Source: Ottowia sp. SB7-C50
GTDB taxonomy: Bacteria; Pseudomonadota; Gammaproteobacteria; Burkholderiales; Burkholderiaceae_C
Assembly: GCF_033110285.1 (NCBI RefSeq)
Contig: NZ_CP136995.1
Coordinates: 3,472,001-3,536,000 of the forward strand
Length of the DNA stretch: 64,000 bases
Reading direction: 5' to 3'
Shown here: one piece after another, positions 20,572-25,399 of the stretch
Position numbering within the stretch: position 1 is the stretch's first letter
How the letters are laid out: each line of letters opens with the position of its first letter
Translations under genes and position numbers: made by a program
Notes under the pieces: generated by a model
The model's database searches: none
Seen by the model: the letters and a program-made list of their open reading frames with translations, nothing else
Told to the model about the DNA's origin: nothing

Positions 20572-23500
20572 ATGTCGCCACTGCCCATCCTTCACGGCCC
20601 CGACGCCCCCGACCTGCTGCGCCACGAAATCCTGGCGGACATCTTCGAGGCCACGGCCGCCCGCGTACCGGACAAGACGGCGCTGATGTTCGACGCCCGC
20701 CGCGTGACCTACGCCGAGTTGAACCACGACGCCGACCGCGTGGCGCACCGGCTGATCGAGGCCGGCGTGCAGCCCGGCGACATGGTGGGCCTGTGGCACC
20801 CGCGCGGCATCGAGCTGCTGACGCTGCAGCTGGGCATTGCCAAGACCGGCGCCGCGTGGCTACCCTTCGACGCCGACGTGCCCACCGACCGCATCGCCGT
20901 CTGCCTGGACGACGCGGCCGCCAAGGCGCTATTGATTGATGAGCACCATGGGCAGTCTGCACGCGCGCAAAGCGACATTTCGGCACAGATTCTGACGGCG
21001 CATGAGCTGCTGGCGCCGCTGCCTGAAGGTACGGCCTTGAAGCGCCGCGAAGGCGCGCTGCCGGAGCACACCGCCTACGTCATCTACACCAGCGGCTCCA
21101 CCGGCAAGCCCAAGGGCATCGCCATCACGCAGGGCAGCATCAGCCACTTTTTGCGCAGCGAGAACGCGCGCCTGGGCGTGCGCGAGGACGACCGCGTGTA
21201 CCAGGGCTTTTCGGTCGCCTTCGACATGAGCTTCGAGGAGATCTGGATCAGCTACCTGGTCGGCGCCACGCTCTGGATAGCGCCGAAGGAGATTGCTGGC
21301 GACCCCGAGGCGCTGCCGCGCGCGCTGATCGAGAACGACGTGACGGTGCTGCACGCCGTGCCCACGCTGCTGGCGCTGTTCGCGCAGGACGTGCCGGGCC
21401 TGCGCATCATCAACCTGGGCGGCGAAATGTGCCCGCAGGCGCTGGTCGAAAAGTGGGCGCCGGGGCGACAGATGTTCAACACCTACGGCCCGACCGAGGC
21501 CACGGTGTCGGCGTCGCTGGCCGAGCTGAAGGCCGGCGAGCCGGTGACGATTGGCGAGGCGCTGCCCAACTACGGGCTGCTGGTCATCGAGGTGATCGAC
21601 CCGGACAGCATCGTGAATGGCGTGGTGCCGCCGCTGAAGATATTGCCGTTTGGCGAAACCGGCGAGCTGTGCATCACCGGCCCTGGCGTGGCCGCCGGCT
21701 ACCTGGGCCGGCCCGATCTGACGGCCGAGAAATTCCTGCCCAACCCCTGGGCGCGCAACGAACAAGAGGCGCGCCTGTACCGCACGGGCGACCTGGCCAA
21801 GGTCGAATACAAGAGCGACGGCACGCCGCAGATGCAGTGCCTGGGCCGCGCCGACGACCAGGTGAAGATTCGCGGCTTCCGCGTCGAGCTGGGCGAGATC
21901 GAGGCCGTGCTGGCCGACCAGCCCGGCGTGGGCACCACCGCCGTCCTGCTGCGCAAGGAAGGCGACATCGACCAGCTGGTGGCCTTCTACGTGCCCAGCG
22001 GTGCCACGCCGCCGGCGGTGAAGGACCTGCGCACCGGCCTGGCCGAAAAGCTGCCGCCCTACATGGTGCCGGCGCGCTTCGAGCCGCTGCCGGCCATGCC
22101 GCGCCTGCAAAGCGGCAAGATCGACCGCAAGGTGCTGAAAGCGCAGCCGCTGACGGCCGCCGCGCCCGCCGAAGGCAGCGACACGCCCGAGACGCCGGCC
22201 GAACAGGTGCTGTTTGCCGCGCTCGAAAAGCTGTTTCCGGGCCAGCCGATCCGGCGCGAGCTGGATTTCTTCAGCGACCTGGGCGGCCATTCGCTGTTTG
22301 CCGCGCGCATCACCAGCACGCTGCGGCAGGACCCGCGCTTTGCCCAGGCCACGGTGGCCGACATCTACCAGAACCGCAAGATCGGCCTGATCGCCGAGGC
22401 CCTGCAAGCCGGCATGATCGGCGCCGACGCCACGGCGGAGCGCCCGTTCCTGCTGCACAGCGCCTGGCGGCGCTGGCGCTGCGGCATCGCGCAAGGGGTG
22501 GCGATTCCGTTCCTGGTGCTGATCAAGATGGCCCAGTGGCTGGCGCCGTTTTTCATGTACCACTTCTTCACCGGCGATGCGGACGACACGGTCGGAAGAG
22601 CGGTCGCGATGTCGCTGCTGGCCTATCTGGGCGCCACGCTGGCCGCCTTTGCCGCCGCCTGGGCAGGCAAGTGGCTGATCGCGGGACGACTGAAGCCGGG
22701 GCGCTATCCGCTCTGGGGCTTGACGTACTTCCGCTGGTGGCTGACCGACCGGCTGATCGAAGCCGCGCCGGTGTACATGATCAGCGGCTCGTCGCTGTAC
22801 CGCATGTGGCTGGGCGCGCTGGGCGCGCGCATCGGGCGCGACGTGGTGCTGGGCTCGATCACGCTGCGCGTGCCCGAGCTGCTGCGCGTGGGCGAAGGCA
22901 GCAGCATCGGCAACGGCGTCAACCTGGAGAACGCGCGCGTCGAAGGCGGCTGGCTGCATCTGGGCGCCATCGACATCGGGCGCAACGTCAGCGTCGGCTC
23001 CTACGTGGTGGTCGAGGGCAATACCCGCATCGACGACTGGGGCCACGTGGACGGCCAGTCGGCGCTGCAGGACGGCACGGTGGTGCCGGCGCGCAAGGTG
23101 TGGGCGGGCTCGCCGGCGCGCGAGCGCGGTGATTTCGACCCCGCCAGCCTGCCGCCGCGCCCGCCGGTCAGCGAAGCACGCCGCGTGCTGGAGGGCTTGT
23201 TCTTCGTCCTGGGGTCGCTGGCCATTGCCGTGCTGTTCTTCATGCCGGTGTTTCCCACCTTCATGCTGATCGACTGGCTGGACGTGCCGCAGATCTCGGT
23301 GCGTCCGCTGCTGGACGATGGCTCGATCACGGCGGTGCAGGCGTTTGGCCTGCGCTTCGTCAAGTTCTTCCTGCTGGCCTTGCCGGCCAGCGTGGTGATG
23401 ATCGTGCTCACCGCGCTGATCTCGGCCGGCATCCGCTACGCCTTCCTGCCCAAGATGAAGGCCGGCTCGTGGCCGGTGCACAGCAACCGCTACCTGGGCA

Positions 23501-24757: not shown

Positions 24758-25399
24758 ATGGTCTCTGAGGGCAATGCGCAGCCCACGCGCTGTGGCTTCG
24801 CCGGCGACGAAGCGCCCGGCGCCCCGCGCGTGTACGTGCTGCCCGCCCCGGTCGCGCCCGCCGGCGCCCCGCCCGAAGCGGCGCGTCGCCTGGCACGCCA
24901 GCACGCGCGCGCTGCGTTGCGCAGCCTGCTGGCGCATGACTTGGGTTGCGCGCCCGAAGCCATCGACCTCAGCGACACACGCGGTCAGCCGGTGCGCGCG
25001 GCCGGGCATGAACGCATCGGCCTGTCGATCAGCCACGAACATGCGCTGAGCCTGCTCGCGCTGTGCCCCGACGGCGCGGTTGGCGTGGATGTGGTCCGCG
25101 TACCCGCCGCCAGCGACGCCGACGAGCTGCGCCGCGCGGCGCATTTGTTTCTTGAGCCAAATATGGCTGCAGCGCTGGACCAGGAAGCGCATGAAGCTAC
25201 TTTTTCAATAGCATTTGCCGCCGCGTGGGCGGCGCACGAAGCGCGCCTGAAATGCATCGGCCAGCCGCTCGTCGAATGGTCGTCCGCGCTGTCCGCGCGC
25301 CTGGCCGGCGTGCGCAGCGCCGCCGTCGAATTGCCGCCTTGGGCGGCGGCCGATCATGTGGCGGCGGTGGCGTGGCGCGCCGCCGGGCTGGGCGGCTGA
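24758..25399 (+). CDS. 4'-phosphopantetheinyl transferase superfamily protein
   Basis: 213 residues. Sfp-type signatures are present: GLSISHE (CoA contact), AVGVDV (metal-binding Asp region, usually GIDIE-like) and WAAHEARLKC, where the usual lysine of W-x-x-K-E-A is histidine. An in-frame copy of the dispersed repeat sits directly before that last motif (25158-25218). The protein lies 112 bases after the Pls-like gene on the same strand and most simply activates Ser574 of that carrier domain. ATG 24758 is the first start; no strong ribosome site is seen. The His substitution leaves activity open. Confidence 0.85.
   Translation: MVSEGNAQPTRCGFAGDEAPGAPRVYVLPAPVAPAGAPPEAARRLARQHARAALRSLLAHDLGCAPEAIDLSDTRGQPVRAAGHERIGLSISHEHALSLLALCPDGAVGVDVVRVPAASDADELRRAAHLFLEPNMAAALDQEAHEATFSIAFAAAWAAHEARLKCIGQPLVEWSSALSARLAGVRSAAVELPPWAAADHVAAVAWRAAGLGG
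25158..25218. repeat. Dispersed ~60-bp repeat, in-frame copy in the PPTase gene
   Basis: CCAAATATGGCTGCAGCGCT...CAGGAAGCGC...GAAGCTACTTTTTCAATAGC. It is read as NMAAALDQEAHEATFSIA, immediately before the catalytic W-x-x-H-E-A motif. Confidence 0.7.

Follow-up and report, generated by a model that had tools for sequence, protein, structure and literature searches.

What does a membrane-bound non-ribosomal peptide synthetase (NRPS) make when it has one adenylation domain, one carrier domain and neither a classical condensation domain nor a thioesterase, and which of its neighbors work with it? The question is raised by a gene at 20572..24645 (+ strand) of a 64,000-nucleotide stretch of Ottowia sp. 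SB7-C50 (contig NZ_CP136995.1, positions 3,472,001 to 3,536,000), referred to here in its entirety as the window. The gene product is, very probably, an orthologue of PosA, a membrane-bound, iterative, single-module enzyme, and its adenylation pocket predicts delta-poly-L-ornithine as the product. The gene is followed on the same strand by one for a phosphopantetheinyl transferase (PPTase). The features of the two genes, in window coordinates, are as follows.

20572..24645, + strand: posA-like gene, predicted delta-poly-L-ornithine synthetase, a Pls/PosA-family single-module membrane NRPS of 1357 amino acids (aa)
20644..22119, + strand: adenylation domain, residues 25-516 (Pfam, pocket alignment)
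22291..22293, + strand: Ser574 codon, predicted phosphopantetheine attachment site, motif LGGHS (motif, model, conservation)
22462..22683, + strand: membrane helices 1 and 2, residues 631-665 and 674-704 (hydropathy, model)
22858..23133, + strand: left-handed beta-helix of module C1, residues ~763-854 (sequence similarity, model, fold comparison)
23173..23445, + strand: membrane helices 3 and 4, residues 868-890 and 921-958 (hydropathy, model)
23599..23898, + strand: left-handed beta-helix of module C2, residues ~1010-1109 (sequence similarity, model)
23953..24168, + strand: membrane helices 5 and 6, residues 1128-1165 and 1169-1199 (hydropathy, model)
24322..24603, + strand: left-handed beta-helix of module C3, residues ~1251-1344 (Pfam, sequence similarity, model)
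24424..24432, + strand: Q1285-T-H1287 codons of C3; candidates for the active site, conserved across the family
24758..25399, + strand: PPTase, 213 aa (PF01648)

The synthetase and its adenylation pocket

The synthetase frame is intact, open from a GTG at 20530 to the stop at 24645; the ATG at 20572 agrees with the N-terminal consensus built from the window protein together with 22 relatives and gives 1357 residues. The NCBIfam model TIGR02353 ("Pls/PosA family non-ribosomal peptide synthetase") matches residues 640-1348 with 797.8 bits against a cut-off of 423.1, and the amino acid adenylation model scores 376.4 bits. Because the first score lies so far above its cut-off and full-length relatives occur in many genera, a chance match is excluded, and by profile the protein is a member of the Pls/PosA family. 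Pfam places AMP-binding (PF00501) at residues 25-378 and AMP-binding_C (PF13193) at 442-516; neither Condensation nor Thioesterase families are among its six matches at E <= 0.01. The carrier family PF00550 gave no match in the Pfam scan because the carrier is too divergent; Ser574, which lies in an LGGHS motif, is itself identical in 119/119 aligned rows, and an AlphaFold2 model has four helices in the region around it. Hydropathy gives six hydrophobic regions and the model six long helices, arranged in three pairs that bracket three beta-helix segments. The original prediction, made from the letters of the window, had described this same layout, with one adenylation and one carrier domain (Ser574), no classical condensation or thioesterase domain, six membrane helices around three left-handed-beta-helix-like domains, and a PPTase gene 112 bases downstream, and every part of that description held. 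It had also called the product the most interesting uncharacterized one in the window, which overstates the case: close relatives are already named "Pls/PosA family" by NCBI, so that the synthetase is a further member of a known family, and PosA has been characterized in vitro (PMC10522769).

The closest solved structures by sequence are 8g95 and 8g96, the former being the adenylation domain of PosA from Acinetobacter baumannii (Patel and Gulick, PMC10522769). The adenylation core of the window protein is identical to crystallized PosA at 248/400 positions (62%), and against the full A. baumannii protein the identical positions number 303/498 for the adenylation domain, 42/95 for the carrier region and 364/729 for the C-terminal part. 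The pocket residues D218, M219, E222, H261, N281, G283, T304, V312, S313 and K516 spell DMEHNGTVSK, which agrees with the crystallized core at 9/9 positions, with the full posA gene at 10/10, and with the PosA code as printed in PMC10522769. In that study PosA favors L-ornithine over L-lysine more than 160-fold, uses D-ornithine at about half the efficiency of L-ornithine and L-lysine weakly, loses activity when Asp217 or Glu221 is mutated, and yields delta-poly-L-ornithine of 7-12 units in vitro; its Met218 is proposed to set chain length (PMC10522769). The corresponding residue of the window protein, Met219, matches. The earlier reading of Asp218 with a Glu four residues on (Glu222) as a pocket for basic amino acids was correct, and the alignment with PosA narrows its candidates, ornithine, lysine and diaminobutyrate, to L-ornithine, which is the indicated substrate given full pocket identity to an assayed enzyme.

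The weight that such identity can bear depends on how variable the pocket is among relatives. In a table of 201 rows (the window, 120 proteins and 80 loci, which overlap in some genes; the window protein itself recurs as P0001), 193 rows carry the exact code, seven the T304S form, and one is cut off. A separate set comprises 39 full-length relatives; the broken Pls of genome G065 (L171) and short copies from locus L174 were excluded from it, and some members probably come from the same genomes as the 80 loci (L175/L013, L183/L017). Of these 39, 16 have the code of PosA or the T304S variant of it and the other 23 have different codes, nine codes in total. A maximum-likelihood tree of 56 adenylation cores places PosA 8g95 and the window protein together in a clade of 33 rows with support 100/100. 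All 16 relatives with the PosA or T304S code fall inside this clade and none of the 23 others does (0/23); one row with DMEHNGTVTK (L156) likewise lies outside. The code therefore discriminates, because 23/39 relatives carry other codes and all of these lie outside the PosA clade.

Characterized members of the family can be compared with the window protein one by one. PosA (PDB 8G95-8G98; PMC10522769) shares the single adenylation domain, the carrier and the three-module membrane domain as well as the pocket and clade described above, and differs in its host, a gammaproteobacterium, whereas Ottowia is a betaproteobacterium. Pls, the epsilon-poly-L-lysine synthetase of Streptomyces, is named in the TIGR02353 model and has the same architecture (PMC4668381), and its adenylation domain (PDB 7WEW) is matched by the window protein at 246.1 bits, as against 495 bits for PosA; in lysine enzymes the second pocket residue is Ala in place of Met (PMC10522769). 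The synthetases of poly-diaminopropionate and poly-diaminobutyrate have an adenylation-carrier-C1/C2/C3 layout like that of the window protein (PMC4668381) and Phe at the second position (PMC10522769); unlike the window protein, loci with a Phe pocket lie outside the PosA clade on the tree. Synthetases of two further records with Phe pockets, which are not part of the tree (L189 and L192, pockets DFECLSAVTK and DFECLSVVTK), adjoin diaminobutyrate transaminase genes, and pocket and neighbor together are consistent with a poly-diaminobutyrate product there. No diaminobutyrate transaminase gene is found among the scanned neighboring open reading frames (ORFs) of the window.

The membrane domain and a candidate bond-forming site

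The soluble domains, whose homology to the C domains of Pls was one of the points on which the original prediction stood or fell, are such homologues by profile, by alignment with PosA and by structure prediction. The AlphaFold2 model, which covers residues 530-1357 and was built on a 51-row alignment, is of good quality by its own measures (predicted local distance difference test 87.2, predicted template modeling score 0.88). In it a bundle of helices resembling a carrier precedes a threefold repeat. Each unit has a pair of long helices, a short strand with helices, and successive short strands of the kind seen in a left-handed beta-helix; a published model of the PosA C-terminal domain is described in matching terms (PMC10522769).

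All three beta-helix segments are weakly similar in sequence to beta-helix proteins. The top fold matches (Foldseek, VIA-align) are hexapeptide acyltransferases, namely maltose and galactoside acetyltransferases and CysE. The 50 PDB matches listed are beta-helix proteins aligned in part, at low coverage of the query (TMq 0.08-0.15), none of the fold matches listed covers the whole C-terminal domain, and, as the VIA-align rows lie mainly over C1, the fold comparison speaks chiefly for that module. A search of the viral structure library gave nothing informative for the domain. Maltose O-acetyltransferase, CysE and other hexapeptide acyltransferases are trimers of separate chains that act on acetyl-CoA; in contrast, the model of the window protein has three unequal modules fused in one chain and threaded with membrane helices.

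Conservation was assessed in 119 sequences, 23 of which belong to the other-pocket group (L024, whose gene call is in two pieces, was left out). A polar residue was counted as conserved if at least 97% of rows retain it and no more than one of the 23 other-pocket rows lacks it. By this measure two polar residues are conserved in C1, two in C2 and nine in C3. Q1285 and H1287 are present in 118/119 sequences, the sole exception being L023, which has no residue there; L022 and L023, both cut by contig ends, are the source of the empty cells at positions 1285-1335. Nine further sequences were added: A. baumannii PosA and eight records out of the 65 in the plasmid collection that match the C-terminal part, mycobacterial matches being left out. 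These comprise five from Actinomycetota and three from Alphaproteobacteria besides PosA; L190 and L194 among them have an annotated ORF that lacks the adenylation domain and were counted from the carrier onward only. Q1285, H1287, E1266 and E1335 are kept in 9/9 of the added sequences, as are Q641, R721 and N1067 of C1 and C2; E1266 is replaced by Asp in L165. Four other C3 residues considered as strictly conserved (E1290, K1295, Y1315 and K1333) were rejected, all four differing in the Kitasatospora sequence L193.

The crowding of conserved polar residues into C3 suggests a single active site at Q1285-x-H1287. H1287 (model residue 758) belongs to the first of the paired strands 758-761/764-767 within the third beta-helix, and, as a working hypothesis, C3 would hold the one bond-forming site with H1287 the likely general base. 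Kito 2013 (as cited in PMC4668381) found all three tandem domains of Pls to be essential, which is compatible with a single C3 site if C1 and C2 are structural, yet lends it no support.

By the proposed mechanism, the downstream PPTase, to judge from its adjacency and family, would attach the phosphopantetheine arm to Ser574; the adenylation domain, given its pocket, would activate L-ornithine with ATP and then presumably load it onto the carrier. By analogy with PosA and Pls, the three-module membrane domain would join ornithines, delta-amine to alpha-carboxyl, without classical condensation or thioesterase domains. On the hypothesis drawn from conservation, the bonds would be formed in C3 and H1287 would be the likely general base. 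The conservation pattern thereby points to a specific residue for a step so far unsolved, the formation and ending of the chain in the absence of these domains.

The adjoining phosphopantetheinyl transferase

The PPTase gene starts 112 bases beyond the synthetase stop (gap 24646-24757). Its product matches PF01648 with 28.2 bits, just over the cut-off of 25; the top NCBIfam match is HetI, with 41 bits against an equivalog cut-off of 370, and because this score is so far below the cut-off no subfamily is claimed. Among the window PPTase and 62 relatives, D111 and E161 are kept in 63/63 and K165 in 62/63; we take these to be the Asp, Glu and Lys of the PPTase motif. A PPTase of the window type lies downstream of the synthetase in 62/80 related loci, directly next to it in 58 and with one gene between in four (L010-L013). 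The 18 loci that lack one include two whose contigs end at the synthetase (L022, L023) and two with less than 3 kb of downstream sequence (L026, L068). In many loci the PPTase gene begins within or right at the end of the synthetase gene, which makes an operon likely, and the two genes would form a compact unit that could be expressed whole.

Searches of the host genome (3.61 Mb, one contig) found the window synthetase as the only Pls over the profile cut-off and two PPTase matches, that of the window and a 135-aa open frame elsewhere, which by its size is taken as AcpS. Two other candidates for NRPS parts in this genome were rejected: a carrier at C1:2826410 adjoins one ORF, which we take to be ketosynthase-like, and the one Condensation-family match over the cut-off, at C1:957899, has what we read as the sequence of a wax-ester-synthase-type acyltransferase.

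Pairing with a PPTase was considered as a hallmark of the PosA clade and rejected, since PPTases of other types adjoin synthetases with other pockets. The window-type profile finds a PPTase in 11/16 loci with the PosA pocket vs 1/23 with other pockets (Fisher p 2.6e-5), a p-value since voided: PPTases of another type (4PPT_N plus ACPS) were found by Pfam in downstream ORFs of 2/19 other-pocket loci scanned (L149, L185), and a further PPTase, also missed by the profile, is annotated in L195, so that 1/23 is too low. In L195, a Sphingomonas parapaucimobilis plasmid, the annotated PPTase (5759-6316) overlaps the stop of a synthetase with a DMEHNGTVTK pocket; searches with it and with the window-type PPTases failed to find each other in either direction.

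A wider proposal can be put forward tentatively, with doubt slightly outweighing belief: the Pls/PosA synthetases may polymerize at a single site, the conserved Q-x-H on a hairpin that breaks the third beta-helix in C3, C1 and C2 being mainly scaffold, and may have repeatedly recruited PPTase neighbors of different subtypes, the betaproteobacterial posA-PPTase operon being one case. A partial survey of the literature found neither such an operon nor a lone C3 site described.

Alternative readings and the gene neighborhood

How securely the synthetase can be read as a delta-poly-L-ornithine synthetase depends on the alternatives. An enzyme of the same family and mechanism might instead take a diamino acid other than L-ornithine, namely L-lysine, D-ornithine or diaminobutyrate, or make a mixed or capped oligomer; the tolerance of PosA itself for D-ornithine and, weakly, L-lysine (PMC10522769) and an identity to PosA of just ~61% over the whole adenylation domain are in keeping with this, but all ten pocket residues match PosA, Met219 included, and relatives with other pockets are placed elsewhere on the tree, and such a product is unlikely. 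That the protein instead puts one ornithine on a lipid, sugar or other acceptor of the membrane or envelope, its beta-helix domains acting as an acyltransferase, would fit the lead of left-handed beta-helix acyltransferases among the solved-fold matches. It would also fit the neighbor clusters, in which no export or release gene stands out because the PPTase is the only widely shared one among the 30 commonest, most of them unannotated. Against this, the alignment of the C-terminal part with PosA extends over its full length (364/729), and PosA polymerizes in vitro (PMC10522769); a non-polymerizing role is scarcely credible. The functional unit might, lastly, extend to the divergent PACE-family efflux gene upstream (19971-20468, - strand; PF05232) as an exporter of polymer or diamine. 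The PACE pump AceI transports short-chain diamines (PMC8458285), and a PACE gene adjoins posA in 4/80 loci (L010, L011, L013, L026) and stands beside Pls in three genomes of the same genus (L174-L176), of which L175 is probably the L013 genome. No PACE gene was found, however, in L007, whose synthetase is 99% identical, or in the flanks of 74 further loci; in L008 it lies ~5 kb off, near ilvA, and ilvA is linked in 9/80 loci vs 5/80 for PACE. As ilvA is linked more often, plain local synteny explains so patchy an association; the gene was rejected as a posA partner, and a functional link is very unlikely.

Several observations weigh against the reading as a PosA orthologue with a dedicated PPTase. 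The tree does not show that the product is constant throughout the PosA clade, and 16 loci with some downstream sequence carry no PPTase of the window type. Position 113 of the PPTase is Val, where Sfp has a metal-binding Glu, and the enzyme may also serve the carrier at C1:2826410. The A. baumannii record CP040041 has no PPTase, either annotated or found by search, at a distance of up to 4 kb from posA, whereas the window gene has one downstream. A. baumannii posA is described as a single-gene operon (PMC10522769). From A. baumannii and the 16 loci it follows that the pairing is not required. With the synthetase read as a PosA orthologue, predicted poly-ornithine synthesis is extended, with a firm substrate prediction, from clinical Acinetobacter to environmental betaproteobacteria.

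The closest relatives of the synthetase locus are from Ottowia. Matches to the synthetase at E <= 1e-60 occur in 23/299 genomes of the family, 9/369 of the class and 27/398 of the phylum, the window's own genome being counted in each sample, and the posA-like gene is a sporadic but ordinary accessory gene. In L174 (genome G383, same genus) the stretch of PACE, posA-like and PPTase genes is duplicated, ~12 kb apart (~982-19754), one synthetase copy being intact and the other broken into pieces of 872, 362 and 258 aa.

Across the 80 loci no neighbor save the PPTase is consistently linked to posA. Among the 30 commonest neighbor clusters the PPTase is present in 56 loci and the next commonest in 16, in mixed position and strand; by its motif we take the latter to be a LysR-type regulator. 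The PACE gene, not found in L007, appears to be variably present in the group. A phospholipase A1 cluster (PF02253, scanned in L010 and L026) directly follows posA in five Ottowia-like loci (L010-L013, L026) and precedes the PPTase in four of them (L010-L013); it is a possible aid to polymer release.

Further upstream of the PACE gene, and likewise divergent from posA, are a PALP plus ACT gene of the threonine-dehydratase type and a zinc-uptake ATP-binding cassette (ABC) system; downstream, on the opposite strand, is a gene with a homocysteine S-methyltransferase domain. Methionine synthase appears split in the window: pterin, B12 and activation domains are encoded at 10690-13740 (- strand) and the homocysteine S-methyltransferase at ~25523-26578 (- strand), ~12 kb apart, and the interval holds the zinc-uptake, ilvA-like, PACE, posA-like and PPTase genes. 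Elsewhere in the window, 52296-58799 (- strand) encodes a repetitive 2167-aa protein with DUF7933 and DUF11 repeats and an IPTL-CTERM motif; on the opposite strand a frame rich in G+C at third codon positions, with many stops, is read as a mirror of this gene.

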